Origin: Flagellimonas ochracea
Lineage (GTDB): Bacteria; Bacteroidota; Bacteroidia; Flavobacteriales; Flavobacteriaceae
Direction of reading: 5' to 3'
DNA length: 64,000 bases
NCBI RefSeq assembly: GCF_009903685.1
Contig: NZ_JAAABI010000001.1
Span: 1,054,001 to 1,118,000 of the forward strand
Shown one piece after another: positions 45,612 to 62,051 of this stretch. Position numbers and translations under genes: made by a program. The first letter of the stretch is position 1. The number at the start of each line of letters is the position of its first letter. Under the pieces are notes generated by a model, which worked only from the letters and a program-made list of their open reading frames with translations, made no database searches and was not told the DNA's origin.

Positions 45612-45658
45612 TGATATGGTTTAATATCACCCATTTGTTTGCAAATTGTTTGCAAATT
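45612..45658. repeat. Inverted and tandem repeats just upstream of the integrase gene
   Basis: TGATAT (45612-45617) and ATATCA (45624-45629) form an inverted repeat. GTTTGCAAATT occurs twice in tandem (45637-45647 and 45648-45658), placing two TTTGCAAA palindromes 11 bp apart, one helical turn. These could be integrase arm sites or an operator for the integrase promoter. Confidence 0.5.
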
Positions 45659-45678
45659 TTTTTAGTACCTTGAAGAAT

Positions 45679-46915: not shown

Positions 46916-47269
46916 CTATTTCCGATATTCCTTAAAAAGATATATCCAGAGTATCCTAGATAACCTCATGTTGAAGGAAGAAAGCAATACCAAAACCACT
47001 GCAATAACACCAACGATTCCCAAGTCAAATCGTTCTTCAAAAAAAGGACTGGCCATTAGAAATGTTGCTATCCCCTGTGCCACGGTAAGCACATAACTCA
47101 CATACATGGCTCCAAAGAAAAAACCGAGTTCCTTTTGATAGTTGAAGCCACAAGTAGGACATTGACCGTACATCTGGGGCCTACGGAAATTGAAGTAAAT
47201 ATTGGTCTCCTTAAAGATCCTGCCTATACCGCAATGGGGACATTTATTGGTCAAAATATTTTTCATCAT
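46916..47269 (-). CDS. DUF983 zinc-ribbon membrane protein
   Basis: A 117-residue protein. The N-terminal zinc ribbon has two pairs, CPHCG and CPTCG, separated by about 27 residues. Two hydrophobic helices follow (near 47-70 and 78-100). DUF983 proteins are widespread; some are encoded near cytochrome oxidase assembly genes, but none is here. I start it at 47269 (or 47266), 11 bp after the formylglycine-generating enzyme stop. It is the last gene of the five-gene operon driven from the promoter near 50730. Confidence 0.8.
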   Translation of the reverse strand: MMKNILTNKCPHCGIGRIFKETNIYFNFRRPQMYGQCPTCGFNYQKELGFFFGAMYVSYVLTVAQGIATFLMASPFFEERFDLGIVGVIAVVLVLLSSFNMRLSRILWIYLFKEYRK

Positions 47270-47280
47270 GATTGCCGATT

Positions 47281-48162
47281 TTATGGGTTGGAAATATCCT
47301 TTACACATCGAAAGCCAACGTGCATCAATGAAGTCTCGGGAGTTGAGCCACTCCGTCCTGATACCCTAAAGCCATGGCAGACCATTGGGTCACATAAAAA
47401 GGAACCTCCCCGCTGGGCCTTTTCGCTTTCAGGGTTGGGATTGAAGTTTTTCAAGTCCTCACTGTATGGAACTTTCCAATTCTCACACCACTCCCAAACA
47501 TTACCCGCCATGTCTTGAAGGCCTAAGGGCGATTCTCCAAAAGCCCCTACAGGAGAGGTATATCTATAGCCATCCTTTTGGCTGTTGTACAAGGGGAAGG
47601 CTCCCTGCCAGACATTGGCCTGGTATTCGCCATCTTTCATCAACGTATCGGAACCCCAAGGATATTTAGCTGTTTTGATCAATCCTCCATTTCTGGCTGC
47701 GTGCTCCCATTCCTGTTCTGTGGGCAAACGTTTCCCGGCCCAATTGCAATAGGCTTTGGCATCGTTCCAAGAGACTTGGGTTACCGGGTGATTGTCTTTC
47801 GCTTGTTCACCCTTAGGACCTTGAGGGAACATCCAGTTGGCTCCATCGACCAAGGTCCAACGACCTGTTTCCATTTGGAAGACACCTGCGCTGCCAAATT
47901 TTTGTGCATCGGTAACATAATGGGTCTCTGCTACAAATGTTCTGAATTGGGCTACGGTTACTGGATGAATGTCCATATAAAAGGCTTTGGTAACCTTTTC
48001 ATGGACCGGGCCTTCCTGTGCAAAGACTTCATTAGATCCGATGATGCTTTTTCCACCGGGCACCAATACCATTCCTGCAGGGACCTCTTCTTTTGAAATC
48101 GCAAAAGAACTTGCGAAAACCACAATAGCTATGGCCACTATAAAAATTATGCTTCGTTTCAT
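47281..48162 (-). CDS. Exported formylglycine-generating enzyme (SUMF1-type sulfatase maturase)
   Basis: A 293-residue protein with a Sec signal (1-22). The FGE-sulfatase domain fills the rest: GMVLVPGG, VTVAQFRTFV, NHPVTQVSWNDAKAYCNWAG, RLPTEQEWEHAAR and GLQDMAGNVWEW. The active site RGGSFLCDPMVCHGFR has both catalytic cysteines, Cys257 and Cys262, with the same spacing as human Cys336/Cys341. It is therefore a likely O2-dependent enzyme that turns the Cys of a CxPxR motif into formylglycine. The natural client is the arylsulfatase at 51889-53676, also exported. It starts 4 bp after the protease stop. Confidence 0.9.
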   Translation of the reverse strand: MKRSIIFIVAIAIVVFASSFAISKEEVPAGMVLVPGGKSIIGSNEVFAQEGPVHEKVTKAFYMDIHPVTVAQFRTFVAETHYVTDAQKFGSAGVFQMETGRWTLVDGANWMFPQGPKGEQAKDNHPVTQVSWNDAKAYCNWAGKRLPTEQEWEHAARNGGLIKTAKYPWGSDTLMKDGEYQANVWQGAFPLYNSQKDGYRYTSPVGAFGESPLGLQDMAGNVWEWCENWKVPYSEDLKNFNPNPESEKAQRGGSFLCDPMVCHGFRVSGRSGSTPETSLMHVGFRCVKDISNP

Positions 48163-48166
48163 GGTC

Positions 48167-49198
48167 TTATTTATTTAATTGAATGGTTATATTTTCAGTT
48201 TTTCCGCCCCTTACAATTTCCAATTCCAAGGGACTATTGGTTTTTTTAGATTTTTGAACTATCCTGACAACTTCTTCCAAAACATCAACAGATTCAAGTT
48301 TGATCCCGTTCACCCTCAGAATGACGTCACCACCTAGAATGATTTTTTCTTCGTTGAGTTCTATTGCTACATTTCCACCTTTTAACCCAGCGAAGTCTGC
48401 AGGTGAAAGTGGAACCACACGTTGCACCAGTAACCCACCACTTTGGGGAACATTAAGTAGGTAGGCGGAGGCTTCATCGAGCAGATAGCCATCCAGTCCT
48501 GTATAAAGACTATTTTCATCGACTACCAACTTTTTAGTTACGTTGGAGGTAGCGGCAAAGCCAATGCCTTCAAAACCACCCGACTCTGTCAAAATTGAAC
48601 TAACGATGCCGATTACATTACCGTTTGAATTGAACATAGGACCTCCGGAATTACCATGATTAATGGCGGCATCGGTTTGAAAGAATTCCGCCCTTACAAA
48701 GCCACTGGTCATATTGATTTCTTGGTGCTTTCCACTGATGTGACCCACTGAAAGGGAATGGGATAGACCATACGGCGCCCCTATGATGCAAATCTTTTCT
48801 CCGATTTTTACTTCATCAGAATCTGCAAGTTCAGCAACGGCAAGATCTTCAGGTATCCAAGCGAGTTTTAATAGAGCTACATCCGCACCTTTGGAAAGTC
48901 TAATGATTTTTGCTGGTATCTCCTTCCCAAATGTGAACTTGATTTTGACTTTTTCAGCAGTCTGTACTACATGTGCAGCGGTCAGGATCAAGCCATCCTC
49001 AGAAATCACCACGCCGGAACCAAGACCCTCCTCATAAACTGTATATTCTGGGTTCGAACGGTCTTTTGAGTTGGAGATGATTTCCACAACGGCATCATTC
49101 ACCTTTAGGTAAATTTCAGCAGGTTCTAAACTGGTTTGGGCCATCGCAAATTGTAAACCAATTGCCAATACTGTCAAAAAACTAAGTAACATTTTCAT
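48167..49198 (-). CDS. Secreted trypsin-like (DegP/HtrA-type) serine protease with one PDZ domain
   Basis: A 343-residue protein with a Sec signal (1-21). The catalytic triad is intact: His76 in LTAAHVV, Asp106 in KGADVALLKL and Ser184 in NHGNSGGPMF. A PDZ domain (about 245-335) contains LSPADFAGLKGG and GGDVILRVNG. It probably works in periplasmic protein quality control or in processing the exported proteins encoded around it. It lies between the beta-barrel gene (49 bp) and the sulfatase-maturase gene (4 bp). Confidence 0.87.
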   Translation of the reverse strand: MKMLLSFLTVLAIGLQFAMAQTSLEPAEIYLKVNDAVVEIISNSKDRSNPEYTVYEEGLGSGVVISEDGLILTAAHVVQTAEKVKIKFTFGKEIPAKIIRLSKGADVALLKLAWIPEDLAVAELADSDEVKIGEKICIIGAPYGLSHSLSVGHISGKHQEINMTSGFVRAEFFQTDAAINHGNSGGPMFNSNGNVIGIVSSILTESGGFEGIGFAATSNVTKKLVVDENSLYTGLDGYLLDEASAYLLNVPQSGGLLVQRVVPLSPADFAGLKGGNVAIELNEEKIILGGDVILRVNGIKLESVDVLEEVVRIVQKSKKTNSPLELEIVRGGKTENITIQLNK

Positions 49199-49247
49199 TG
49201 AGATCGCTTTATACGTTGAAATCCAATTTCCCTTACGGTTTTTAGAA

Positions 49248-50141
49248 TTACTTTATTAAAAGGAAGCTGGCTTTTAGAAAAGCACCGTTTTCAAGTCCGT
49301 AATCTTCGGTATCACCGTTCACATCGGTCGCCGTCAGCTTTCTTTTCAATGAAATTCCTCCTGATAATTGAAGCCTAACACTTTTCGAAAGGTCAGTGGC
49401 TATAGTGGGCCCGATATTGTACCTTGAAAATTTCACACTTTGAACCTGCCCTATATTGCCATTGGCATCCTCAACATTCAACGCATATTCGTTGCCCTGA
49501 AGATCTACTCGGAATCCCAATATGACCTTATTGAGTCGATAGCGCACCGCAGCCTGTATCGGGGCCAAGATCACGATATCCAGATTGCCCTTGCGATATA
49601 CAAACTCCGCCAAAGGCACCAGTTGGGGCTCACCAAATCCATTGATATAGGCCGCACCCAGACCATATGTAAAGCCATTTTCAGTGATGTGCCGAACAAG
49701 GCCCGATGCCTGCAGTGTAAAAGCATCGGAACTTAAGCTTCCTGAAAAATCGGATGCAATCGTCGGTGAAAGAATGGCCCGAATCGCCCAACGATCATTC
49801 AACTTTTGATTGATTCCAGCTGAAAATTTGAGTGCATGAAGGTTGGCTTCAACATTTCGATCATTGGGGAGGTCATTTAAGGGCCCTCCAAGAAAGGTGT
49901 AGTCAACTCCTGCAAAAAGGGTGGTTTTTTCATTTTTTAGTTTGAAAGGCGCTAGAAAGAATGCCCGAAATTCAGAAAGGTTGATTTCTGTGTCCCCAAG
50001 TTGTTCATTTGAGGGGTTCTCCAAACGTACCGCTGGGTTGAATGTATAGGTAATCCCTGCTACGTTGAAACCCTCATCTTGTGCCTTTATTTGAAAAAGG
50101 ATGGTCAAAAAAAATATCGTTGTTATGATTCTAGTTTTCAT
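49248..50141 (-). CDS. Outer-membrane beta-barrel-like protein
   Basis: A 297-residue protein; I start it at the ATG at 50141 (MKTRIITTIFFLTILFQ), 10 bp after the DUF4136 stop. After a Sec signal the sequence has regular amphipathic strands, such as TTLFAGVDYTFLGGPL, GFTYGLGAAYINGFG and VRLQLSGGISLKRKL, and ends in hydrophobic residues, consistent with a small barrel or porin-like channel. It has no family I can name with confidence. It may move substrate or product of the sulfatase system across the outer membrane. Confidence 0.72.
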   Translation of the reverse strand: MKTRIITTIFFLTILFQIKAQDEGFNVAGITYTFNPAVRLENPSNEQLGDTEINLSEFRAFFLAPFKLKNEKTTLFAGVDYTFLGGPLNDLPNDRNVEANLHALKFSAGINQKLNDRWAIRAILSPTIASDFSGSLSSDAFTLQASGLVRHITENGFTYGLGAAYINGFGEPQLVPLAEFVYRKGNLDIVILAPIQAAVRYRLNKVILGFRVDLQGNEYALNVEDANGNIGQVQSVKFSRYNIGPTIATDLSKSVRLQLSGGISLKRKLTATDVNGDTEDYGLENGAFLKASFLLIK

Positions 50142-50151
50142 GATGTTTGTT

Positions 50152-50691
50152 TTAACTATTTTGGTCTGTCTTATATTGATCAAAAATGGCCTTGACCGCT
50201 TCGTTTATCTTCTCTTCCAATTTGATGGAATTGGGATTGATTATACCAGTAGTGCTCCCATGCCATACGACTTGTTTGGTCTTTGCATCGACAAAGTCAA
50301 CAATCAAGGTGCCTTCAGTATATTCCCGGACGTCGACATCCGTGATTTGATATTGCCACCTTCTTCTTCCGTAGTAATTTGTATATACATTATAATCCTG
50401 TTTGGTATCGACAATTACAAAGTAGCTGACCAACACATCTGGACCGGTCACACCAGAATTGTTCTGTACAGTTGAAAGGGCAGCAGCCTGTTCTGCTATC
50501 GCTTTTTCCAACTGCATCTTTTGCGTTGGATTTACATTGGGTAAAAACCCCTTCTCGGTATCTGCGACCGTGTAGAAATTGTATTTGTTCAAGTCGGCAG
50601 TATCAGCGGTTTCACTGGATACCTTCAGACTGGAACAAGCTGTGACCAGCAAAACCAGAAATACCGATAAAATTCTTAGCGTTGTTTTCAT
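50152..50691 (-). CDS. DUF4136 lipoprotein
   Basis: A 179-residue lipoprotein (signal MKTTLRILSVFLVLLVTAC, then SSLKVSSE). The mature part matches DUF4136: LNKYNFYTVADTEK, KAIAEQAAALSTVQN, DVLVSYFVIVDTKQDYNVYTN, YTEGTLIVDFVDAKTKQVVWHG and INEAVKAIFDQY. The role of this family is unknown. It is the first gene of the operon with the beta-barrel, protease, FGE and DUF983 genes. Its promoter carries one of the four shared direct-repeat sites. Confidence 0.85.
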   Translation of the reverse strand: MKTTLRILSVFLVLLVTACSSLKVSSETADTADLNKYNFYTVADTEKGFLPNVNPTQKMQLEKAIAEQAAALSTVQNNSGVTGPDVLVSYFVIVDTKQDYNVYTNYYGRRRWQYQITDVDVREYTEGTLIVDFVDAKTKQVVWHGSTTGIINPNSIKLEEKINEAVKAIFDQYKTDQNS

Positions 50692-50728
50692 GACATTTAT
50701 TTTTAGGTTGTTAAACATAAATTCTGGT

Positions 50729-50797
50729 CAAACTTACCCTTGAATAGCCCTAGAAACACGCGAGAATTTCCCATCGCTTCATATGGGTTTCCCAACG
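50729..50797 (-). promoter_or_regulatory. Promoter A with LytTR-type direct repeats, for the DUF4136-barrel-protease-FGE-DUF983 operon
   Basis: Reading the minus strand, repeat one CGTTGGGAAA (50797-50788), 11 bp, and repeat two CGATGGGAAA (50776-50767) are 21 bp apart. After 10 bp comes TTTC (50756-50753), then 16 bp, then the -7 box TAAGTTTG (50736-50729). The leader would be about 32 bases. Three other promoters in this region have the same layout. Confidence 0.8.
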
Positions 50798-50868
50798 GGA
50801 AGTAGTAGTTTTTGACATAAAAAAACCACCTGTGATCAACAGGTGGTCCAAACAACAAAACTTGAAAA

Positions 50869-51870
50869 CTAATTGCTCTCTATGTAGTTTTTGAATTTTT
50901 CCTGAAAGTCGTGAAAACTCCAGCTTAACGTGATCTTGGTCACCGTACCATCTAAGGAAACATTATCATTTCCTGAAGAAAAGGTTTGGTTATGGGTCAG
51001 GAAAAGATTTAGGTTGTCATTGATGTTGAACCCAACCGTTGCACCGATCAAGTGCACATTTTGACCTGCCTGTTCACTGATCATCATTCCCGTTTCCTTT
51101 GAGATGAACTCTGAACTTCCGCCATTCATGTAACTGTAGTCCAGGGATAAGAAGCTGTTTTTGGTAATATCCTTTGTCAAATGGCTTTCTACCACAAAGA
51201 GGCCACTTTGCTCTATCTCTTGACCTTGAAAATCATTGTTTCTTGAAAACAAGGTGTATGATGGAAAGACTTCCAATGTTGTTTTCTTGCCCTGTACCCA
51301 TGGACCTATGCGCTGAACAAAGGGCAGACCGAATTTAAACTTGAATTGGTTGCTACCGATGTTTACGGGATTCTCCGAATCGTATTGGCCAGTGGGAAAA
51401 CTTACCGCTGCTTGGAGATACAACAAGCTAGGATTTTCATGGCGTACAAAATCCTTGATCATCAAGCCCTCAGCTCCAATAAGGTTGATGGTGTTTGACC
51501 ACATCAAATCGCCAAAACCATGCTGAAAAATAGTGTTTGAAGCTGCTGCCGGACCTTCGGGGTCTACATTTACCGTGGCCGTAATATTTCCGGCAGGCAC
51601 GAATAGGGTTGAATAAAAAGTTCTTCCAAAAATGGGCTGGCTTCTAGTATAGGTCAGCATATATAAATTATTGTCAACGGTTGCATTGGGATTGATAAAG
51701 CTCAGATTGTTGGCCGAGGCATTCACCTTGGCATTGATGAAATGGGCACTTAAGATGTTCAAATTTTTGGGTAGCGCCCAATAGGTCCTGGGGCCGTCTA
51801 ACTGTGCATTCGTTTTTCCGAATAAAAGAAATGTTATGATAATGAGATATACATATTTCATGATTTCCAA
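50869..51870 (-). CDS. Outer-membrane beta-barrel transporter-like protein (MetA/phenol-degradation type)
   Basis: A 333-residue protein with a Sec signal (to about residue 22, KTNAQ; an alternative start is the ATG at 51861). The body has the strand pattern and aromatic girdle of the 'MetA-pathway of phenol degradation' barrels: NLYMLTYTRSQPIFGRTFYS, LYLQAAVSFPTGQYDSENPV, VFPSYTLFSRNNDF and FLSLDYSYMNGGSS. Such barrels are usually taken to admit hydrophobic compounds. It starts 18 bp after the arylsulfatase gene, so the two share a transcript. Confidence 0.75.
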   Translation of the reverse strand: MEIMKYVYLIIITFLLFGKTNAQLDGPRTYWALPKNLNILSAHFINAKVNASANNLSFINPNATVDNNLYMLTYTRSQPIFGRTFYSTLFVPAGNITATVNVDPEGPAAASNTIFQHGFGDLMWSNTINLIGAEGLMIKDFVRHENPSLLYLQAAVSFPTGQYDSENPVNIGSNQFKFKFGLPFVQRIGPWVQGKKTTLEVFPSYTLFSRNNDFQGQEIEQSGLFVVESHLTKDITKNSFLSLDYSYMNGGSSEFISKETGMMISEQAGQNVHLIGATVGFNINDNLNLFLTHNQTFSSGNDNVSLDGTVTKITLSWSFHDFQEKFKNYIESN

Positions 51871-51888
51871 TTTTTTAGGGTTGTTTGC

Positions 51889-53676
51889 TTATTGCTTGTT
51901 ATCTATTTCAGGTACAGTTTCAGAACCTCTGTCGAACTCAGGGTCATAGAAAGCCGGTCTTGGGGGAAGTTTATCCTCCAAACCATCGTAAACCGTGCGG
52001 TTTGGTGCGATGACGTTATTGGTGGTTCTATATTCTTCCCAATCGGCTACGAGTTCCTTTAATTTTTCAGGATGGGATTGGGCCAGATTGTGTCGTTCAC
52101 CAGGGTCGTTCTCAAGATTGTACAACTCCCATGAGCCATTTCCATAAGGAACCACCATGCTGACCAATTTCCAAGGTCCTTTGCGAATCGCTTTGCAATT
52201 CCATAGCTCCACACCGATATATTCTTCATCTGTTCTCGGGGAACTTTTCTCACCTTTGAGGGTAGCCACCCAAGATTTTCCTTGCATGGGCAGTGTTGTT
52301 TGACCTTTGAACGTATTAGGTGCCGTTATCCCGGCCAGTTCTAAAAAGGTGGGTGCTATATCTTTCACCTGCATTACGGCCTCGGTATTTATTTGGCCAG
52401 CGTTGGTCTTATCGGGGCTCACAACAATAAGCGGTGAACGGATGCCGCCTTCGTAGGTCGTATACTTGGTACCATTGAAAGGGGCCGCGGAAACTTGTGC
52501 CCATGAAGGGCCATATGCCGTCCAAGAACCCTTTCTTCCCCAGTTTTCAAAGCCATGGGTATATTCACTGGCAAACCAATTGGCCTTTTCCGTAGCAGGG
52601 TAATTTTTGTAGTTGTCGGCCTTCTGGGCAGCGTCAGGGCCGTTGTCGGAGAAGAAAACAATGTAAGTGTTCTTGCGAAGGTCATTTTTTTCGAGATACT
52701 CCATCAACCTTCCAATCTCCATGTCCATATAATCCAATACCGCGGCAAAAACCTCCATTTTTCTGGCTGTGATAGTCTGTGCAAGCGGTTTGAGCTTATC
52801 AAAACCCGGCACGTACCAAAGTCGCTCACCCATTTCGGTTTTTTCGGACAGTATGCCCATTTTAACCATTCTCTTCAAACGCTCATCCCTTAATACATCC
52901 CATCCTTTATCGAAGACACCCTGATACTTCCGCAACCATTTGTTTGGAACGGCCAAGGGGTCGTGTGGTGCTTGGTGGGCCAGATACGCAAAGAAGGGCC
53001 TGCCATCGGTCTTGTTCGCATCAATGTAATCAATGATCTTATTGGTGAATGTGGTGGTGGCATAATAGTTCTTGGGTAGCTCTTCAAGATATTCCCCATC
53101 TTCGGAGAAATGGTTCTTGTCGATATGTGAATCCGGACCTTTGAAGTCGAAATAACTTCCTGCACCCGATAGCATGGCGAACGACTTTTCAAAGCCTCTT
53201 GAATGCGGTAGATTTTCCTTGGCCTTTCCCAAATGCCATTTCCCGGCCATATAGGTGTGATAACCATTGTCTTTCAGTATCTCGGAAATTGCGGGAATAT
53301 CTGTTCGCAGGTATCCTTCATAACCGACAACATCCATTTGGTTCTGTGCCGTTTTTTCATACATATTTCCCAAGCCTGCCAAATGGCTGTCCATCCCTGA
53401 GAGCAGCATTGACCTCGTCGGGGAACAGGTGGGTGCCACATAGAAATTGGTATAGCGCACCCCATCTTGGGCGAGCTTATCAATGTTAGGGGTATTGATT
53501 TCACCACCAAAAGCCCCCACGTCCGAAAAGCCCATGTCATCGGCGACAATGACAATGAAGTTGGGTTGGTCCGTTTTCTTTGTCTGGGCATTCATCTGGC
53601 CACTGATAAACACGACCATCAATGCCACAAGAGCGAACATCTCAGATTTTACTTTGTTTGTTTTCATCGTTTTCAA
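51889..53676 (-). CDS. Exported arylsulfatase (type I, formylglycine-dependent)
   Basis: A 595-residue sulfatase with a Sec signal (to about residue 31). The metal-binding Asp46-Asp47 lie in VIVADDMGFSDVG. The formylglycine motif is C-S-P-T-R, Cys84-Arg88, in APTCSPTRSMLLSG, so it needs an FGE. TYMAGKWHLG (Lys146, His148), HQAPHDPLAVP and FFSDNGPD complete the active site. The overall layout resembles Pseudomonas AtsA-type arylsulfatases rather than short polysaccharide exosulfatases. It releases sulfate from an aromatic or related ester; the natural substrate is unknown. Its promoter carries a shared direct-repeat site. Confidence 0.92.
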   Translation of the reverse strand: MKTMKTNKVKSEMFALVALMVVFISGQMNAQTKKTDQPNFIVIVADDMGFSDVGAFGGEINTPNIDKLAQDGVRYTNFYVAPTCSPTRSMLLSGMDSHLAGLGNMYEKTAQNQMDVVGYEGYLRTDIPAISEILKDNGYHTYMAGKWHLGKAKENLPHSRGFEKSFAMLSGAGSYFDFKGPDSHIDKNHFSEDGEYLEELPKNYYATTTFTNKIIDYIDANKTDGRPFFAYLAHQAPHDPLAVPNKWLRKYQGVFDKGWDVLRDERLKRMVKMGILSEKTEMGERLWYVPGFDKLKPLAQTITARKMEVFAAVLDYMDMEIGRLMEYLEKNDLRKNTYIVFFSDNGPDAAQKADNYKNYPATEKANWFASEYTHGFENWGRKGSWTAYGPSWAQVSAAPFNGTKYTTYEGGIRSPLIVVSPDKTNAGQINTEAVMQVKDIAPTFLELAGITAPNTFKGQTTLPMQGKSWVATLKGEKSSPRTDEEYIGVELWNCKAIRKGPWKLVSMVVPYGNGSWELYNLENDPGERHNLAQSHPEKLKELVADWEEYRTTNNVIAPNRTVYDGLEDKLPPRPAFYDPEFDRGSETVPEIDNKQ

Positions 53677-53710
53677 ATTATTAGGTTGTATTTCGTTTTA
53701 AATGTTGATA

Positions 53711-53779
53711 CAATGTTATGGTAGTGAAGCAAACAACACTACCGAGTATTACCCAATGTTGCCTTTCGCTTTCCGAACG
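53711..53779 (-). promoter_or_regulatory. Promoter D with LytTR-type direct repeats, for the arylsulfatase-barrel operon
   Basis: Minus strand: CGTTCGGAAA (53779-53770), 11 bp, CATTGGGTAA (53758-53749), 10 bp, TGTT (53738-53735), 16 bp, then TAACATTG (53718-53711) as -7. The site ends one base before the stop codon of the next gene. A perfect inverted repeat GGTAGTG/CACTACC (53720-53726 and 53737-53743) overlaps the -33 region and could be a second operator. Confidence 0.77.
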
Positions 53780-54586
53780 TTACGGTTTGCTCGCCTTCTT
53801 TTTGAATATGACCTTTGGAATCAATGCGGTAAAAGTGAATTTGAATGTCCAGTCCCCTCCACTGAGCTCCGGGCTTTCCATAAGATAATCGGCCCCGACC
53901 TGTATATTAAAGGGAAGAAAGCCTTTTGGCTTTACTATTTTTCCAAAACCTATGCCCACAGGTATGGTCCAGCGGTTATCTGAATCAGCTTGCCAGTTGG
54001 CCACCACTTTGGGCGAAGTGGATAGATAATAACCATTGGGCAGGTTGTAGTTGATAAAGGGTTGAACCGTGAACGCAGCATTATCACTCTCTAAGGACCA
54101 AACATTGTTGATCAGCATCCCGATTACCCAATTACTGGGCTTCACAACACCCACTACCGATGGTCCCACGCCCCACTCTTGAATTCCCAAATTATCCCCT
54201 GCCGTGGGTAGATTGAATACGGGACCAACACCCCAGCTCACCTTGCCTTTTTTTGTATAAAACACGGAAAGATTCACATCCCCAATGCCATTGAAATTGC
54301 CCGACTCGGCAAAAACATTGGGTTGGTTTACAATGGGTAAGATGACCCTTGCGATGATCTTACCATCGGCCATGGGTATTACAGGCTGTAGGTTGGTAAT
54401 GCTCAGTGTCCGGTCAAATGGGCCAATACCAAAAGTAGTATTGTTTTGAAAGGGTATACTGATGATGTTCGCAATGGGATCTTGGGCAATTTTGGCCAAA
54501 TCTTCTTCGGTAAGTTGGCCATAAATGTGTTGATTGCCCAAATACAGGCTTAACACAGTGATGAATATGCATCTGAAATTTTTCAT
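53780..54586 (-). CDS. Outer-membrane transporter-like protein ('neuromedin U' type)
   Basis: A 268-residue exported protein (signal to about residue 23, HIYGQ). It has the family start LTEEDLAKIAQDPIANIISIPFQNNTTF (in two parts, around residues 24-52), then FNLPTAGDN, NVWSLESDNAAFTVQPFINY and NLPNGYYLSTSPKV, all typical of the family misnamed 'neuromedin U' in databases. The strands suggest an outer-membrane barrel. Function is unknown. It has its own promoter with a shared direct-repeat site, and the next shared site lies at its 3' end. Confidence 0.8.
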   Translation of the reverse strand: MKNFRCIFITVLSLYLGNQHIYGQLTEEDLAKIAQDPIANIISIPFQNNTTFGIGPFDRTLSITNLQPVIPMADGKIIARVILPIVNQPNVFAESGNFNGIGDVNLSVFYTKKGKVSWGVGPVFNLPTAGDNLGIQEWGVGPSVVGVVKPSNWVIGMLINNVWSLESDNAAFTVQPFINYNLPNGYYLSTSPKVVANWQADSDNRWTIPVGIGFGKIVKPKGFLPFNIQVGADYLMESPELSGGDWTFKFTFTALIPKVIFKKKASKP

Positions 54587-54612
54587 TACTTGCGGATTTA
54601 TTGATTATGGTT

Positions 54613-54691
54613 CAAAGCTAGAAGTGCAGTACGCTACAAACACCTTGTAATTACCCATCGTAGCGATACCATTTCCCAACGCGTTACAAGG
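54613..54691 (-). promoter_or_regulatory. Promoter C with LytTR-type direct repeats, for the neuromedin-U-like gene
   Basis: Minus strand: CGTTGGGAAA (54681-54672), 11 bp, CGATGGGTAA (54660-54651), 10 bp, TTTG (54640-54637), 16 bp, TAGCTTTG (54620-54613). Both core boxes match the Bacteroidota consensus. The direct repeats are bracketed by a perfect inverted repeat CCTTGTAA (54643-54650) and TTACAAGG (54684-54691). The site also lies upstream of the divergent cyclase gene. Confidence 0.82.
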
Positions 54692-54732
54692 AAATTCAGT
54701 GATTAGTATCTTTAGCTAACATTGAATCGGAA

Positions 54733-55851
54733 ATGGAAATCCACCCGAAACACAAGCGATATTTTAGGCAAGCCTTGACCTTTGGCCTTATATGGTTCCT
54801 ATTCGGAATTATCTACTGCCTGGTGGAAAGAGGACTTATGGGAAGGGAAACCATCTACCCTTCAACCGGTAACCAATATGATTTTAAAAACTCACTGCTT
54901 TTTGTTGGTATCGGTTCTTTTGTCTTGGGTGGAATTCAGGGGTGGATAGAAGCGGTATGGTTCAAAAAACTTTTCCAAACGAAGCCTCTTTGGTTCAAAT
55001 TATTGGTAAAGGGCAGCTATTATTTGGTATTCCTGATTGTGTTTCTCTCAACAATTGCTATTGCCATCAATAGTTACTACTTGAATTTGAGTCCCTTCGA
55101 CCCAATGGTCTTAAAGACGTATTTCATCTTCATTGGAAGGTTTCCATTTTGGAGCGTGATTATTTATGCCGCAGCCATTCTCACCATTGCCCTCTTTTTA
55201 TCAGAGGTGAACAACTACATTGGGGTTGGGATGTTCCGCAACTTCTTTCTAGGTAAATATCATCGTCCTATAAAAGAGATTCGAATATTCATGTTCCTGG
55301 ATATGAAATCCTCCACCAAGATTGCCGAATCATTGGGTCATGAACAGTATTTTGATTTGTTGAAATTGTATTATTCCCATATGTCAGACGCCATTTTGGA
55401 AACTTATGGAGAGATCTATCAATATGTCGGTGATGAAATTGTTGTGTCATGGCCTGAAGGAATTGGGCTGAAAAGCAATAACTGTATGCGTTGCTTTGAA
55501 CGGATCTCAGAGACCATCTCAACAAATGAGGGGCTATTTCTATCCCGGTTTGGGCTGGTTCCCGAATTCAAGGCAGGATACCATATTGGGGAGGTGACCA
55601 CTGGTGAAATTGGCAACATTAAAAAAGAAATCATATACACGGGGGATATCTTGAACACGGCGGCACGAATTCAAGCGGAATGTAATACCTATAATGCGAA
55701 AGTATTGGTATCAGGCAACTTACTGGAGAGATTGAGTCCTGTATCGCATAGGGAATTTACAGAAGTTGGCACTCCCTTATTGCGGGGTAAACAGGAAGCG
55801 ATCCGCCTCTTTAAATGGGAGCCTGACCTTCACCCTGCCACTGGCTCTTGA
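54733..55851 (+). CDS. Membrane-bound class III adenylate cyclase
   Basis: A 372-residue protein. It has four hydrophobic helices (about 12-30, 53-72, 95-115 and 138-157) and then a cyclase catalytic domain (about 183-345). Metal-binding residues are Asp190 (MFLDMKSST) and Asp234 (YVGDEIVVSW). The substrate pair Lys280 (EFKAGYH) and Asp305 (YTGDILNTAAR) indicates ATP rather than GTP; Asn308 and Arg312 for transition-state binding are present. It probably makes cAMP at the inner membrane. It is divergent from the neuromedin-U-like gene, and its 3' end overlaps the convergent channel gene by 22 bp. Confidence 0.88.
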   Translation: MEIHPKHKRYFRQALTFGLIWFLFGIIYCLVERGLMGRETIYPSTGNQYDFKNSLLFVGIGSFVLGGIQGWIEAVWFKKLFQTKPLWFKLLVKGSYYLVFLIVFLSTIAIAINSYYLNLSPFDPMVLKTYFIFIGRFPFWSVIIYAAAILTIALFLSEVNNYIGVGMFRNFFLGKYHRPIKEIRIFMFLDMKSSTKIAESLGHEQYFDLLKLYYSHMSDAILETYGEIYQYVGDEIVVSWPEGIGLKSNNCMRCFERISETISTNEGLFLSRFGLVPEFKAGYHIGEVTTGEIGNIKKEIIYTGDILNTAARIQAECNTYNAKVLVSGNLLERLSPVSHREFTEVGTPLLRGKQEAIRLFKWEPDLHPATGS

Positions 55852-56528
55852 ATCAGATATTTTCCGACCAGCATAGCCACCAAAATAGTAAGATATAGCT
55901 GACCGGTGATACCGATTAAAAGCGCTAAGGATTGTACAGGGGGTGTTAATGGGAGCACATCCCCAAACCCTAGGGAAGTCAAGGTGGTAAATGAAAAATA
56001 AGTGAGTTGGTACATCTCACTTCCATTTTCCAAATTGTAGGAGCCCGGAATCCACAAATGGATAAATTGGCATAGCTGACCTCCAAAAAGACCAATCAAG
56101 AAATACCCTGATATCGCAGCCGAAATGATATTCAACGTAATACGCTTGCTCTTCCATATAATACTGAACAGACGATATCCCAAAAAAGTCAAAAAAATGC
56201 TGGTGAAAAAAACCCTAAAGAATTTGAGTATTCCCCATTGTCCGGTTTGCACACCTAGCCAAATAAAAATGATAGCTATGGAGCCCATAATCAAACCGAT
56301 CAAGAAATGACGGACTGAATTGGATATCAACTGGATTCCCGTAAACACTACAAATGATAGGGTTACCTGAAAAATCATAGCTTTTAAATCAGGTAATACA
56401 TATACGGGAATGGGTATTATCAGCAAAACAATAAGACTCAACAAAAGCCATTTCGAGTTGTTTTTGCCCCTAAACAGAAACTGCTGTAATTTCAAATGGT
56501 ATCGATATGCTTTTCGTAATCTTTTCAT
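55830..56528 (-). CDS. Two-pore-type potassium channel-like protein (Ion_trans_2)
   Basis: A 232-residue inner-membrane protein with about six helices (near 28-46, 50-70, 75-92, 103-125, 132-152 and 200-222). The pore loop at 176-190 reads FSFTTLTSLGFGD: a K+-filter-like T-S-L-G-F-G-D where T-V-G-Y-G-D is standard. No cyclic-nucleotide-binding domain or RCK domain is attached. It lies 6 bp downstream of the small gene at 56535-56846 and is transcribed with it from promoter B. It overlaps the cyclase gene tail to tail. Confidence 0.83.
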   Translation of the reverse strand: MKRLRKAYRYHLKLQQFLFRGKNNSKWLLLSLIVLLIIPIPVYVLPDLKAMIFQVTLSFVVFTGIQLISNSVRHFLIGLIMGSIAIIFIWLGVQTGQWGILKFFRVFFTSIFLTFLGYRLFSIIWKSKRITLNIISAAISGYFLIGLFGGQLCQFIHLWIPGSYNLENGSEMYQLTYFSFTTLTSLGFGDVLPLTPPVQSLALLIGITGQLYLTILVAMLVGKYLIQEPVAG

Positions 56529-56534
56529 GGCAGC

Positions 56535-56846
56535 TCATTTGATGTTATATCGAAGCTTCAATAGCAATAATTCTTCCTCAAGTTCTTGGCGTAGCTCAGA
56601 TAATCGATCATTACCCCCTCTACCTTTTTGACCCGCTATCAAACCGTTGATACATTTTTTCAAATAGCCCATATCTACCTGCTCTTTGTTATTGAGGTAG
56701 GAAAGGGTGCCTTTGATGGCGACCAAAAAATACTGGGTTTCCGCCGTGTCTTGGTAAAGGCTCATCACACTTTCAGTCTTGTTTAGATAATACTGCAATA
56801 CCGTTTGGCATTCTTTTAATAGGCTTTTGGTATCATAGACAGTCAT
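56535..56846 (-). CDS. Small helical protein of unknown function
   Basis: A 103-residue soluble protein, nearly all helical and charged (MTVYDTKSLLKECQTVLQYY, ending ELRQELEEELLLLKLRYNIK, a likely coiled coil). I start it at the ATG at 56846, since the promoter -7 box at 56862-56869 overlaps any longer reading and puts the transcript start near 56856. No family is recognised. It is encoded 6 bp upstream of the channel gene and might be a channel partner. Confidence 0.65.
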   Translation of the reverse strand: MTVYDTKSLLKECQTVLQYYLNKTESVMSLYQDTAETQYFLVAIKGTLSYLNNKEQVDMGYLKKCINGLIAGQKGRGGNDRLSELRQELEEELLLLKLRYNIK

Positions 56847-56861
56847 GGCATAGATTTTTTT

Positions 56862-56930
56862 CAAAAGTATTTTGTACATCCCCGTATTTATATAGTGAGT
56901 TTCCCATCGTTCTGTTTTGATTTCCGAACG
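56862..56930 (-). promoter_or_regulatory. Promoter B with LytTR-type direct repeats, for the small helical protein-channel operon
   Basis: Minus strand: CGTTCGGAAA (56930-56921), 11 bp, CGATGGGAAA (56909-56900), 10 bp, AAAT (56889-56886), 16 bp, TACTTTTG (56869-56862). The leader would be about 10 bases. The site lies 54 bp upstream of the divergent sensor-kinase gene, so it may also affect that gene. Confidence 0.8.
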
Positions 56931-56984
56931 GGAAGCATAATGTGCTATTATTCATTAACTTGAGGTAATCATAATCGCTGTTCA

Positions 56985-59900
56985 ATGTCTTTTTCGGCAA
57001 AATTTTCCGATGTTGAAATCAATGTGCAGAACATTGAAGGAAAACCCTTGTTGACGGAACAGATTGTTTCAAATCGGGAGGCAAAAACAATAAATGTCGA
57101 TAACCCCATTTTCTTAAGGCCAAAAAACTCCGCTACGACCCAGAATTTCGTGCATGCATTTGACCATGTACAACTGCAGCCTTTTGACCCAAAGATTCCC
57201 AGAAGCAAAGAAGAAGTAAGTCAATTATTGGTCAAGTGTATTTCTTTGGTCGAAGCCATAAAATCACTTCACCAAAACAATTTGTCGATAGGATTGCTTA
57301 CTTCTGGTCGATTTAGTTTGAACCAAAAAGGTGGCCTTGTGCTGCTCGGCAATTCTTTGATCAATGATGCCCCGGCCGAACATCGCTTTGAGCATTATGC
57401 CTTGGAGGATTTCTACTTTTTGGCGCCGGAATGCTACCAGAACGTTCAGCTCACCCCTGATTACCGTGCCGACTTTTATTGCCTTGGCGTCAATATGTAC
57501 ATCTGGTTTACAGGGAGCCTCCCCATTAAGGGAGATGACCAATTGGAGTTAATGCACCATCATCTTACAAGATTGCCCAAAACCCCCAAAGAAATCAACC
57601 CTGCCATTCCCAAAGGCCTTAGTGAGATGCTGTTGACCTTATTGGCCAAACAGCCAGAGGGTCGCTATGCCTCGGCATTCGGAATTCTCCAAGACCTTGA
57701 AGCCATTCGCAGGGCACATGAAACAGGAAGTGATTCGCCCATTCACTTGCACACCGACTATAACCCCGGTAAAATCGATTTTGGCACTACACTCTACGGG
57801 CGGGATAGTCTATCGAAAGACTTGGAAGACTGCTTTGGCAAGTCAGAGCACTTTTATTCCCAAATGGCGTTCGTGGAAGGATTTTCCGGTGTTGGAAAGA
57901 CGAGCTTGCTCCGAAAATTTATCAATAGTGTTTCCTCCAGCAAAACAATTGCTTTGGAGGGTAAGTTCAACCAATACAAACAAGCCCCTTATGCCGCCAT
58001 TCAAATGGCCTTCGGTGACCTGGAAAGACAATTATTGCTAAAGTCCAATATTGACAAAAATCAGCTCAAGCAAATTTTGGTCAAGGATTTGGGGAAAAAT
58101 CTGGGTGTACTTCAAGAAATCATCCCTGATATTGGTTTTTTGGTCGGAGATCTAGAGCCCGCGGAACTCTTGAACCCCATTGAGACTCGAAACCGTTTCA
58201 ATTACGTATTTCATAAATTTTGTGAGGCCATTACTGATCTGGGCTTACAGCTAATTTTGTTTTTGGACGATTGGCAGTGGTCTGACCCGCCATCCTTGGA
58301 ATTGATAAAATCACTCACCCGACAAGAAAGCAAGGGTATTTTGTTCTTATTTGCCTTTAGGGGCGATGAAGTGGATACCAACCATCCCTTTCATCTATTT
58401 AAAACGGAACATGCCAAGCTTCCCCATTCCCATCATTTTGTGGTCGATCCACTCGATAGAACATTGGCAAATCGGATGGTGGCCACTGCCTTGGGAATGG
58501 ACGAATCAAAAACAATCGAACTTTCCAGTTTGATTTTCGAGAAGACAGAAGGCAATCCGTTTTTCATCAAACAGTTTGTCAATTCGTTGCATCAAAAAGA
58601 ACTGCTATGCTATAATTATGACAAGCATGTTTGGAAGTGGAATGCATCCAACATAAAAAAAGAGGGGCTTACCCAGAATGTGGTCGATTTAATTACCCAA
58701 AAAATTGACAAACTTTCCTACGAGGTACAGATACTATTTAAAATTGCCTCATGCACAAGCGGGAAATTTGATTTGGATTTGATTTCTGAAATCAGTGGAA
58801 TTGAAAAAACACTGATTCCGATACTGCTTGATGTTTCCATCGGTAGCGGATATATCACAAAATCAAAACAAATGGACGTAGTGCAATACCAGTTTACCCA
58901 TGACCGAGTGCAACAGGCGTCCTATCAATTGCACATTCCAGCATTTCAACTGACCAATGAAAAATTACATCTTCGCATCGGGGAGTATTTAATGAAAAGA
59001 AGGGATGGTGAAAATTATACCAAAGGCGAAATCCTACTACACTTTTTAACGGCCAAGGAATTAATTACCAAAGGGAGTGCTTCGGAAATAATTAAGCTCG
59101 TACTTGAATTAAATGACGATTCAACCCTCTCGGTAACACCAGAAGCGAGCGAACAACATTTTGAGCTGGCCCTTTATTTGAGTGACAAGTTCAACATCAA
59201 GGAACACCTATTTGATTGTTATTTGGGCCTATCGCAAGCAAATTGTCTTCTAAACGATTTGCCGTCTGCTGAAATCTATGCCGACAAAGCCTACAACTCG
59301 ACGGAAAACATCTTGAAAAAAGTGAGGCTGTTACGCATGAAGATGCTTTTTTATGAAAGTTATGCCTTGTTCGAAAAAAATATAGAAACGGGTCTGAAGG
59401 CCCTTAGCTTATTTAAGATAGATGGGGAAGAACACTTTGCGAACAATACGTTGGGGCCATTGATTGAAAAGGAGTATCAGCTTTTCAATTCGCTGACCGA
59501 AAAGAAAAATCTCTTCAAAGAGTTCTCCGAAAGAAAAATGACGTCCCCCAAGGCATTGGCCATTATGGATGTCTTGGTCAATATGAATGCATCTGCCTAT
59601 TTTGTCAACCTGTATTTGTTTGCTTGGAGCACTTTGAAAATGGCCAATCAGACCCTACGCCATGGCCTTACCAATTCTACTCCCTTTGCGTTGGTTTTTG
59701 TGGGATCATTGCTAGTGGCCCTGTATAAAGAATTTGATCGTGGCTATGATTTTGGAAAACTGGGGGTCGATCTTTTGAAAAAGGTGGAAAATGACCAATA
59801 TAAAAGCAGGACCCTATCTGTTTTTCCAATTTTCATCCAGCACTTCAAGGAACCCATTCTCGCGGGCACCCAGAATCTTGATGAATCCATTTACAGCGGT

Positions 59901-62051
59901 CTTGAAACGGGCGACCTCCCTTATGCCGGGTATTCGTTCTATGCCAAGGTCCGGGATGCTTTTTTAGCGGCTGATGATCTCAATGAAACATTGGATCTTT
60001 GTGATGAAAGCATTGCATTCATGCAGAACGTCAACAATCAAGGCTTGTTGGCACTTATGCGCTTACTAAAGGGCAGTATTCTAAAACTATTGAACAGGTA
60101 TGAGCCAAACTATGAGATGATAGAAAAGGAAGCCCTGCAATTTCTTCTGGATGTTAAATTCTTTACGGCCGTATCACATCATTATATTTTTAGAAGTTGG
60201 GCACATTGTATTTTAAAGGAGTTTAAACCCGCAAGTGCTTTGTTGAAGCAAAATGAGGAGATTGTTGTATATGCAGCATCCCAACCCCATGTGCCAAAGC
60301 ATTATTTTTTGGATTCGCTGTGCCTGCTTTACCAAAATCAACGCTTATCCAAGGAACAGGAAAGAAGAATAAAGGATAATCAAAACACCTTAAGGCTTTG
60401 GGGGGAGAGTATGCCTGAAAACTTCAGTGCAGAATACCATCTAACCGACACTCTCTTAAAAGGCCGGGAAGGAAAGATTACAGATGCACTGACCTCCTTT
60501 AACGTAGCACTGAAATGGGCAGAAAAAGGGGGGCTCTTGGGGGTGAAGGCCCTCGCCTATGAAGTGGCTTCCGACATGCTCAAATCCAGTGATTATTCCG
60601 TGCTTGCGGAGGGTTTTGAAAGAAATGCCAAGGATGTGTATGAAAAATGGAACGCTCTGGCCAAAACAGGGATTCGAAAAAAAGCTATCGATGATTATGG
60701 AAAAGGGAGCGACCTCAACACCGCCAGTCTTATCAAATCAATGCAGGCCATTTCCGCTGAGGTAAACAAGAAAAATGTGATTGAAAAGCTTCTGGGTGTA
60801 ATTATGGAAAATGCAGGTGCTGACCGAAGCGTTTTGATTTTGATTGAAAATGGTATAGCGTACGTTGAGGCCGAGACTACCTCGGAAAAGGAAATGAAAT
60901 ATCTTGAAAAAAGACCTTTGGTCAAAAGCAAGGTTCCTTTGAATATTATCGAATATGTGATTGGTTCAAAAAAGGAATTTGTGCTAGAAAACCAAACGGC
61001 TATTTCTGATGTTGATGTCGAATACATTGAGAAAAATAAAATTCTCTCTTTATTGGTGCTGCCACTGGTCAGACAACAAGAACTTATAGGGATTTTGTAT
61101 TTGGAGAACCACAGGTTTGCAAGTTTATTTCAAGGTAGTGATCTTGAGATACTCAAGGTTGTTGCCTCACAGGCCGCTATATCCATTTATAACACTTTAT
61201 TGTTTGAAGAGACTTCAGGTCTCAATATGGAGCTTCAGAAATCAAAAGATGAACTAAGCAAGATGAACTTGTTGTTGGAGCAGAAGATAAAAGATCGAAC
61301 CAAAGTACTTCGCCAAGAAATCGAAACAAGGAAAAAAATAGAGGAGGAACTGAAAAAAGCGCAGAAAAAAGCGGAAAAATTCCATGCACAGCAAATCAAG
61401 CAAGAACGTCAAGAGGTGCTACAGTCAAAGATGATGATGCTTTCTTCGCAAATGAATCCCCATTTTATTTTCAATTCGCTCGGATCGGTACAGTCGTACA
61501 TCTTAAATAATGAAACCAATAGAGCGGTAGATTTCATTTCTGAGTTTGCCGGCCTGATGCGGAAGAATCTGGTCAATTCAACCACAAAATATATTTCCAT
61601 CTCCGAAGAACTTGAATTTTTGGATAAATATTTATTGCTTGAAAAAATACGCTTCAACAATAGTTTTGATTATAGCATTACCGAAACGATCGACAATCCG
61701 CACGATACATTGGTTCCCCCTATGCTTTTGCAGCCTTTTATAGAAAATGCCGTAATACATGGGCTTAGTAAACTCAGTGACCGAAAAGGTGAATTGACGA
61801 TTAGCTTGGATGAAGTTGAAGATAGAATTGTCTGTACCATCGTAGATAATGGTATTGGGAGGGAGAATGCTTCAAAGCTCCGCAGCCCCGGCCATAAATC
61901 GGTAGCCATAAGTAATTTGGAAACCCGTTTGGAGCTGTTGAACAACTCTGAGCAGACCGATGAATACTCGTATGAAATTGTGGATTTAAAGGACAAAAAA
62001 GGACCCATTGGAACTAAGGTCACCGTGTGCTTTCCAAACGATTTACATTAA
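56985..62051 (+). CDS. Giant cytoplasmic sensor: pseudokinase, STAND-type AAA ATPase, TPR-like region, GAF, LytS-type histidine kinase
   Basis: A 1688-residue protein without signal or membrane segment. Residues about 75-245 match the C-lobe of a Ser/Thr kinase (LAPE at 146-149, RADFYCLG at 161-168), but the HRD region reads NLSIGLLTSG and the DFG region VLLGNS, and the P-loop lobe is missing. It is therefore a pseudokinase. Residues about 268-700 are an AAA_16 ATPase (Walker A GFSGVGKTS 299-307, Walker B LFLDDWQW 425-432), followed by a TPR-like helical region, a GAF domain (about 1255-1410), a coiled coil and a His_kinase domain with His1493 in QMNPHFIFN and DNGIGREN for ATP. It should phosphorylate the LytTR regulator encoded convergently. 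Confidence 0.9.
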   Translation: MSFSAKFSDVEINVQNIEGKPLLTEQIVSNREAKTINVDNPIFLRPKNSATTQNFVHAFDHVQLQPFDPKIPRSKEEVSQLLVKCISLVEAIKSLHQNNLSIGLLTSGRFSLNQKGGLVLLGNSLINDAPAEHRFEHYALEDFYFLAPECYQNVQLTPDYRADFYCLGVNMYIWFTGSLPIKGDDQLELMHHHLTRLPKTPKEINPAIPKGLSEMLLTLLAKQPEGRYASAFGILQDLEAIRRAHETGSDSPIHLHTDYNPGKIDFGTTLYGRDSLSKDLEDCFGKSEHFYSQMAFVEGFSGVGKTSLLRKFINSVSSSKTIALEGKFNQYKQAPYAAIQMAFGDLERQLLLKSNIDKNQLKQILVKDLGKNLGVLQEIIPDIGFLVGDLEPAELLNPIETRNRFNYVFHKFCEAITDLGLQLILFLDDWQWSDPPSLELIKSLTRQESKGILFLFAFRGDEVDTNHPFHLFKTEHAKLPHSHHFVVDPLDRTLANRMVATALGMDESKTIELSSLIFEKTEGNPFFIKQFVNSLHQKELLCYNYDKHVWKWNASNIKKEGLTQNVVDLITQKIDKLSYEVQILFKIASCTSGKFDLDLISEISGIEKTLIPILLDVSIGSGYITKSKQMDVVQYQFTHDRVQQASYQLHIPAFQLTNEKLHLRIGEYLMKRRDGENYTKGEILLHFLTAKELITKGSASEIIKLVLELNDDSTLSVTPEASEQHFELALYLSDKFNIKEHLFDCYLGLSQANCLLNDLPSAEIYADKAYNSTENILKKVRLLRMKMLFYESYALFEKNIETGLKALSLFKIDGEEHFANNTLGPLIEKEYQLFNSLTEKKNLFKEFSERKMTSPKALAIMDVLVNMNASAYFVNLYLFAWSTLKMANQTLRHGLTNSTPFALVFVGSLLVALYKEFDRGYDFGKLGVDLLKKVENDQYKSRTLSVFPIFIQHFKEPILAGTQNLDESIYSGLETGDLPYAGYSFYAKVRDAFLAADDLNETLDLCDESIAFMQNVNNQGLLALMRLLKGSILKLLNRYEPNYEMIEKEALQFLLDVKFFTAVSHHYIFRSWAHCILKEFKPASALLKQNEEIVVYAASQPHVPKHYFLDSLCLLYQNQRLSKEQERRIKDNQNTLRLWGESMPENFSAEYHLTDTLLKGREGKITDALTSFNVALKWAEKGGLLGVKALAYEVASDMLKSSDYSVLAEGFERNAKDVYEKWNALAKTGIRKKAIDDYGKGSDLNTASLIKSMQAISAEVNKKNVIEKLLGVIMENAGADRSVLILIENGIAYVEAETTSEKEMKYLEKRPLVKSKVPLNIIEYVIGSKKEFVLENQTAISDVDVEYIEKNKILSLLVLPLVRQQELIGILYLENHRFASLFQGSDLEILKVVASQAAISIYNTLLFEETSGLNMELQKSKDELSKMNLLLEQKIKDRTKVLRQEIETRKKIEEELKKAQKKAEKFHAQQIKQERQEVLQSKMMMLSSQMNPHFIFNSLGSVQSYILNNETNRAVDFISEFAGLMRKNLVNSTTKYISISEELEFLDKYLLLEKIRFNNSFDYSITETIDNPHDTLVPPMLLQPFIENAVIHGLSKLSDRKGELTISLDEVEDRIVCTIVDNGIGRENASKLRSPGHKSVAISNLETRLELLNNSEQTDEYSYEIVDLKDKKGPIGTKVTVCFPNDLH

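Follow-up and report, generated by a model that had tools for sequence, protein, structure and literature searches.

The window considered here is a stretch of 64,000 nucleotides from the genome of Flagellimonas ochracea (contig NZ_JAAABI010000001.1, positions 1,054,001 to 1,118,000), in which the gene of a LytTR response regulator adjoins four operons for an arylsulfatase and envelope proteins. An earlier note, made from the sequence of the window alone, proposed that the regulator activates these operons through paired direct repeats. Four such sites of the LytTR type are present on the minus strand: site 1 (50767–50797) before a DUF4136 gene, site 2 (53749–53779) in the sulfatase promoter, site 3 (54651–54681) in the promoter of the gene called here barrel C, and site 4 (56900–56930) in the promoter of a 103-amino acid (aa) gene and a channel gene. 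All four occur where the note had placed them, as two direct repeats with a 21-bp period and with 0 mismatches to C[GA][TA]T[CG]GG[AT]AA-N11-C[GA][TA]T[CG]GG[AT]AA in a pattern scan of that strand. With up to 3 mismatches allowed, the pattern has six matches in the window (vs. 0.76 expected; the largest of 100 shuffles gave 4), the remaining two with 3 mismatches each.

The layout is the same in each of the four transcription units: two 10-bp repeats, separated by 11 bp, are followed after a further 30 bp by a flavobacterial −7 box. The boxes, also on the minus strand and each starting 30 bp after its site, are TAAGTTTG in operon 1 (50729–50736), TAACATTG in operon 2 (53711–53718), TAGCTTTG in operon 3 (54613–54620), and TACTTTTG in operon 4 (56862–56869); TAnnTTTG or TAACATTG has a frequency of 0.0005 per position in the window. 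The distance of 38 bp reported between box and site corresponds, in all four, to this 30-bp gap plus the 8-bp box. The −33 tetramers proposed in the same note do not hold, as TTTC, TGTT, TTTG, and AAAT are unlike and columns 43–46 carry at most 0.33 bit each over the 31 promoters compared below. Since this tetramer is not conserved, the wording "identical promoter" is too strong: the layout is common to the four, and the promoter sequence is not identical. In two operons, the first ATG of the mechanically called open reading frame makes a poor start codon (56879, upstream of the −7 box, in operon 4; 50718, only 11 nt after the box, in operon 1); the internal ATGs at 56846 (operon 4) and 50691 (operon 1) would fit.

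All the genes downstream from these sites lie on the minus strand. Operon 1 runs from a DUF4136 lipoprotein-like gene, the first after site 1 (50152–50691; Pfam), through the DUF6268 gene of barrel A (49248–50138; Pfam; start codon uncertain), an HtrA/Deg-like serine protease with a PDZ domain (48167–49198; signal-like N-terminus; NCBIfam matches below cut-off), and a formylglycine-generating enzyme (47281–48162; both active-site cysteines present; signal-like N-terminus), to a DUF983 gene (46916–47308; Pfam). Operon 2 contains the arylsulfatase (51889–53667) and then barrel B (50869–51861; PF13557). Operon 3 is barrel C alone (53780–54586), a strand-rich protein and putative barrel, and operon 4 consists of the 103-aa gene (56535–56846; no function assigned) and an ion channel gene (55830–56528; PF07885). 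Between barrel B and site 1, there is a terminator-like hairpin with an 11-pair stem (50823–50849, minus strand); overall, terminator-like sites were not above chance in a simple scan (13 found vs. 18.9 expected).

Pfam confirms the sulfatase, the maturase, the protease, and the channel previously assigned to these operons. The three barrels assigned with them fare unevenly: two match PF13557 and DUF6268, which we take to be barrel families, and the third, barrel C, is without a Pfam match and has only a low-confidence, strand-rich model (mean pLDDT 56.6). The motif C-S-P-T-R at residue 81 of the sulfatase and the paired cysteines in GGSFLCDPMVC at 252 of the maturase indicate a type I (formylglycine) sulfatase with its maturase. 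The closest solved relative is the arylsulfatase of Pseudomonas aeruginosa (PDB 1hdh; E 1.1e-130, residues 36–556 of 595), which has the same C-x-P-x-R; in contrast to that enzyme, the flavobacterial sulfatase has a signal-like N-terminus (by eye) and sits in a LytTR-linked envelope cluster. A polysaccharide utilisation locus was considered and set aside, because neither a SusC/SusD pair nor a glycoside hydrolase is found among the scanned proteins of the cluster (46916–62810). The predicted regulated sulfatase module is apparently not a polysaccharide locus, and its substrate can be sought.

The regulator gene (62043–62810, minus strand) encodes a LytTR response regulator, as had been claimed, with matches to PF00072 (receiver, 3e-19) and PF04397 (LytTR, 1.5e-13). 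Its characteristic features are D60 in the receiver, a loop E175-R176-S177, and FFRVHKS; the best NCBIfam match is BtsR, with 108.5 bits, below its cut-off of 246. LytTR is the only DNA-binding Pfam family among the proteins of the cluster. Of the genes that were not among the queries, none recurs in more than four of the 11 stretches compared, and most are without annotation. The giant sensor (56985–62051, plus strand) combines a degenerate protein-kinase-like part (below the Pfam cut-off), AAA_16, GAF, and a LytS-type His_kinase domain (PF06580, 9.2e-21; H-box NPHFIFN), and it has a P-loop. Because the kinase has just two borderline hydrophobic stretches, the sensor is probably cytoplasmic. 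The AlphaFold model of the regulator (55.0) is, like that of barrel C, of low confidence. Two-component genes are usually co-directional; here, the regulator and kinase genes are convergent, with a tail-to-tail overlap of 9 bp (62043–62051). The same overlap occurs in several of the loci (numbered L) described below, namely L041, L044, L045, L049, and L053–L056, and not in L052, L077, L078, L079, or L046.

One scan with the sulfatase of a collection of genomes from 84,980 species gave 11 loci. Ten are orthologous clusters, including those of Flagellimonas flava (L049), Aestuariivivens sediminis (L045), Pelagihabitans pacificus (L044), and metagenome bins, and in all ten the motif occurs before equivalent genes (1–4 sites each, within contig limits). 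The eleventh, with a gammaproteobacterial sulfatase (39% identity), has neither motif nor regulator. Counterparts of site 1 are found upstream of the DUF4136 gene in L045, L047, L048, L049, and G461 (a genome of the family search below), and counterparts of site 2 before the sulfatase in L041, L042, L043, L045, L049, L051, and G461. In the stretches examined of L045 and G461, the maturase gene was not found. The four sites of the window and 27 orthologous ones, the latter picked by the repeat pattern with the box distance unused, form a set of 31. Left out were matches scoring 12–17 (window 6837, 36109, and the shifted 56909; L042 1614; L045 21021; L046 9639; L047 5080; L049 7837). Locus L040 was also excluded as a duplicate, since it is on the contig of L049.

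In 30 of these 31 promoters, a −7 box starts exactly 30 bp after the site: 21 are strict TAnnTTTG (every strict box is at 30 bp), six are TAACATTG at sulfatase promoters, and three are other variants, the variant boxes having been accepted after the sequences had been seen. The TAACATTG form is that of the sulfatase promoter in the window and in five orthologous loci, and it occurs also in G461. Outside the repeats and the −7 box, there is little information apart from a conserved G at column 42 (1.0 bit). The overall form of the site is ACGTTsGGAAr-N11-aCGtTgGGaAr, with a nearly invariant distal half-site, ACGTT[GC]GGAA[AG], and a looser proximal one. A remembered LytTR half-site consensus, [TA][AC][CA]GTTN[AG][TG], matches in full 18/31 distal and 4/31 proximal half-sites; it was not used as evidence.

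Whole genomes were searched with a sequence-only matrix (R1) built from the 31 sites, as the earlier note had suggested for its four promoters. In the 3.57-Mb genome of F. ochracea, it returns just the four sites (39.3–44.1 bits, E 5.6e-11 to 1.8e-9), and the next match has 13.3 bits; thus, the motif does not occur widely at unrelated promoters, an outcome that would have spoken against the proposal. Among 71 genomes of the genus (own genome, G000, included), eight matches reach at least 38 bits, four in G000 and four in F. flava (G266). Three further genus matches, at 18–19.6 bits, lie elsewhere, and, among the matches listed (E ≤0.01), none exceeds 19.6 bits in the other 69/71. The close (type A) regulator occurs in the same 2/71 genomes as the sites of at least 38 bits. 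Among 397 genomes of the family (own included), there are four matches in the own genome, four in G461 (35.3–51.2 bits), and one in G253 (23.6 bits), and a search for the regulator in 397 family genomes drawn in the same way found it in the same two as the sites. G461 played no part in building the model and contains the same cluster, with a regulator 94% identical and a 30-bp gap before 4/4 boxes. The 19.9 kb compared from G253 gave no match to any cluster gene, and the 23.6-bit match stands alone in the other 395/397 genomes among the matches listed at E ≤0.001. In a first sample of 199 family genomes, no relative of the sulfatase was found beyond the own genome at E 1e-150, and the relatives of the regulator had at best 46%–49% identity. 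Besides the own genome, a search with the giant kinase in 59 genomes gave seven at 27%–33% identity, of which five led to the related loci called type B below.

Taken on sequence grounds, it is very likely that the regulator and the sensor form a self-contained two-component module that switches on the four adjoining operons via the predicted sites, the paired DNA tag being very probably read by the regulator encoded in the same cluster. The proposal of a LytTR regulon is thus supported by the genome-wide specificity, by the co-occurrence of sites and regulator, and by the geometry of published LytTR promoters. LytTR repeats are described as 9–11 nt long and 11–13 nt apart (PMC4847170; this and the other papers given by PMC accession are cited from excerpts of their text), with a bias to 10 bp upstream of the −35 element (PMC6193735); in the case of AgrA, the proximal repeat pair is centred near −60 (PMC4227749). 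With the flavobacterial box TAnnTTTG placed at −12 to −5 (PMC9723704), the centre of the predicted sites falls at about −58. The sites of the window fit the published geometry (10-nt repeats, N11, 4/4 here and 4/4 in G461), except that the −35/−33 element itself is not conserved. The locus is, therefore, well supported as a predicted private LytTR regulon for an AtsA-type arylsulfatase and an envelope module, with exchangeable sensor kinases, and the pairing of regulator and box is, as read from the sequence, unusually clean.

The mechanism could run as follows. The stimulated sensor, probably cytoplasmic, would phosphorylate D60 of the regulator. A regulator dimer, with its subunits head to tail along the same DNA face, would then occupy both repeats around −58 and bring RNA polymerase to promoters that are too weak by themselves. 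The output would be the AtsA-type arylsulfatase, its formylglycine-generating enzyme, barrel-like proteins, the Deg-like protease, the lipoprotein, and the channel, that is, a phosphorylation-dependent activation of a desulfation and envelope module. Site 4, proximal to the kinase (55 bp from its divergent ATG), may feed back on the sensor gene.

The relative place of site 4 is that of the site in a related system, type B, found in 14 other genomes of the genus with a regulator 66%–72% identical. Type-B loci encode a receiver–His_kinase protein and a hybrid kinase of ~1925 aa (domains scanned in L053; homologues in 14/14). They are flanked by the same peroxiredoxin gene on one side and by a divergent AraC gene on the other (13/14 each; L080 ends early). 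At the place equivalent to site 4, all 14 have a repeat like CGTTAAGAAG twice with a 21-bp period; in L052–L056, the five loci for which the distance was determined, this lies 42–51 bp upstream of the ATG of the kinase. A matrix of these sites (R2) gives one site and no second in each of its 14 training genomes, and nothing above 19.0 bits in nine other genomes. The regulator loop, three neighbouring residues of the DNA-binding domain that are predicted to contact DNA, is E-R-S in 9/9 type-A proteins (G461 included) and N-[HQ]-V in 14/14 type-B proteins; at its sixth base, the repeat has G in 62/62 type-A half-sites and A in 28/28 type-B half-sites. In a profile alignment, the loop E175-R176-S177 aligns with residues 165–167 of AgrA, two residues before His169, a reported base contact (PMC4064291). 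The two regulator–box couples are predicted to be a natural altered-specificity pair. A separate receiver–His_kinase protein occurs in type-B L053 and also in type-A L044 and L046, where the sensors are a 680-aa hybrid kinase (L044) and a hybrid giant (L046). Despite these other sensors, L044 and L046 retain the loop and the motif of type A, so that in these loci the motif goes with the regulator rather than with the sensor.

Type-B loci have, in addition, a second repeat element 63 bp downstream from the first (64 in L081), in 13/13 loci long enough to contain it. From its end to the −7 box of the AraC gene there are exactly 30 bp, again in 13/13, and it has other half-sites, two unlike ones in two subgroups. 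Such two-element promoters are found in L053 (12507–12700), L052, L054–L056, L075–L079, and L081–L083. The second element may be an autoregulatory site of the AraC protein or a second LytTR site.

Several observations weigh against a LytTR regulon at the sulfatase cluster. Close relatives contributed many of the 31 sites; these are near copies and not independent, and the sites of G461 resemble those of L048 and L051. The absences in the genome searches are not absolute, because 6–150 candidates were scored per genome. No site stands directly before the sulfatase in L044 and L047, or before DUF4136 in L044; in these two loci, the genes without their own site follow the upstream gene within 20–42 bp. 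One promoter (L044, 8245) is without a good box at 30 bp. Because type B is a single clade, the change of loop and base counts as one evolutionary event. In the profile alignment, the AgrA contacts His169 and Asn201 align with Ser179 and Lys212; at the position of AgrA Arg233, the Arg is conserved (SVRK). According to PMC4847170, the contact loops of LytTR proteins vary.

The 21-bp repeats might instead be bound by an activator of the AraC family whose gene lies just beyond the peroxiredoxin gene or elsewhere, the LytTR gene being a mere neighbor. AraC-family activators also use direct repeats with a 21-bp period, and two AraC genes add to the points against LytTR. In every testable type-B locus, a gap of exactly 30 bp separates the repeat element from the −7 box of the AraC gene, and the type-A matrix gives this element 19.6 bits in one type-B genome (G035). 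A different AraC gene adjoins the peroxiredoxin gene in type-A G461 (L103:1831–2970), L041 (2–1105), and L042 (2–1108), the last two being 82%–83% identical to that of G461. However, this second gene has no match in the window or in L059 (a 19.9-kb stretch beyond the window), in the stretches examined of F. flava (L049, L057, L058), or in L044, L046, L047, L048, and L051, and L045 has only a 31% relative; because the loci without a matching gene all carry sites, it is counted against as the reader. The type-B AraC, for its part, has no orthologue in 3/3 type-A genomes compared, where the best-scoring proteins have 27%–31% identity over the helix–turn–helix vs. 26%–40% in six controls. Neither of the two AraC genes compared is shared by, and restricted to, the genomes with sites, while sites and LytTR gene are present or absent together in the 71 genus and 397 family genomes. 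An AraC reader is, thus, improbable.

About equally improbable is that the LytTR protein binds the sites but represses or only poises the operons. The direction of regulation cannot be read from sequence; however, the sites precede the core promoter (at about −73 to −43) and there is no conserved −33 element, as would be expected for activation. Moreover, the sites of AgrA and HdrR at comparable positions are activating (PMC4227749, PMC6193735). Finally, the repeats could be a general promoter class or the target of a global regulator, as the −7 boxes are ordinary sigma-A boxes, but this is very improbable and largely refuted by the restriction to four sites in the own genome and by the other genomes of the genus (69/71, none above 19.6 bits listed) and of the family (395/397, G253 only).

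Beyond the activating LytTR regulon retained for the sulfatase cluster, the two types suggest, tentatively and with somewhat less than even confidence, that LytTR relays have spread sporadically in marine Flavobacteriia as locus-private systems in which regulator, DNA box, and output evolve as one unit. In such a family of relays, the contact loop and one base of the box would have changed together, and the sensor would have been exchanged among three forms (a protein-kinase-like/AAA/GAF giant, a hybrid phosphorelay, and a short hybrid kinase). The output would have been rewired between a single box beside an AraC gene and four envelope/sulfatase operons (one vs. four boxes per genome). The second, in-register repeat of type B would then possibly be a two-dimer, same-face array.

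One of the closest known parallels is AgrA of Staphylococcus aureus, a LytTR response regulator with two direct repeats upstream of the P2/P3 promoters (PMC4227749, PMC4064291). The regulator of the window conserves the FhRhH-x-S motif and the C-terminal Arg of AgrA. It differs in the His169 to Ser179 and Asn201 to Lys212 changes, and the half-site sequence is different and the −7 box flavobacterial; whereas the sensor of AgrA is a membrane peptide receptor, the one here is a giant and probably cytoplasmic. The E. coli kinases YpdA and BtsS are membrane sensors. The pairs YpdA/YpdB and BtsS/BtsR share with the present module a LytS-type kinase and a LytTR regulator, and the site of YpdB consists of a directly repeated 10-nt motif (PMC4847170), but here the targets are four operons of the same locus. 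In the LytTR Regulatory Systems (LRS), the regulators are paired with membrane inhibitors and, to our knowledge, are without a receiver domain, whereas a receiver and a histidine kinase are present here. An "LRS-like" prediction in Bacteroides has repeats of 11 nt, separated by 11 bp and followed after another 11 bp by TGTA-19-TATCTTTG (PMC6193735). In the open full-text literature, to which the search was confined (subscription papers being outside its scope), we found neither such a LytTR site for Flavobacteriia nor a study linking LytTR and a sulfatase; the excerpts of three flavobacterial papers (PMC5395568, PMC10197871, PMC7440613) mention LytTR genes or domains only.

LytTR proteins share no common consensus (PMC4847170) and, because of this, their boxes are hard to predict. 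In the present case, the box, the likely regulator, and a natural altered-specificity partner are all readable from the sequence, so that a LytTR recognition code becomes testable by exchanging three residues in the loop and a single base in the repeat. The layout suggests a promoter rule for Flavobacteriia (two 10-mers with a 21-bp period, 30 bp before TAnnTTTG) that could be used to find other LytTR regulons. Sensor, switch, and targets appear to travel together as one unit.

A tyrosine recombinase gene (Arm-DNA-bind_5, SAM-like, and Phage_integrase; 45646–46899, plus strand) ends 17 bp from the last gene of operon 1, and the sulfatase is present in only 2/71 genomes of the genus; because of these two observations, the sulfatase cluster may be mobile. 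Divergent from site 3, and starting 52 bp from it, is the gene of a protein with an adenylate/guanylate-cyclase domain (54733–55851, plus strand), which is not placed in the regulon. Its counterparts in the relatives are a matching gene that follows barrel A in L044, a weakly related one in L046, and a remnant in G461. There (L102, 14175–14898), the barrel C and channel genes are missing between the sulfatase and the 103-aa gene, and the cyclase-like remnant is left. In L048 (3052–4386) and L102 (9370–10704), the DUF4136 gene is separated from barrel A by an extra DUF3300-like gene, and in this arrangement barrel A has a LytTR-type site of its own. In L046 (13072–16315), a Bacteroidia bin, genes for Hsp20, a universal stress protein, an AAA protein, and a weak APH-like protein follow the sulfatase and barrel genes, a hint at stress.

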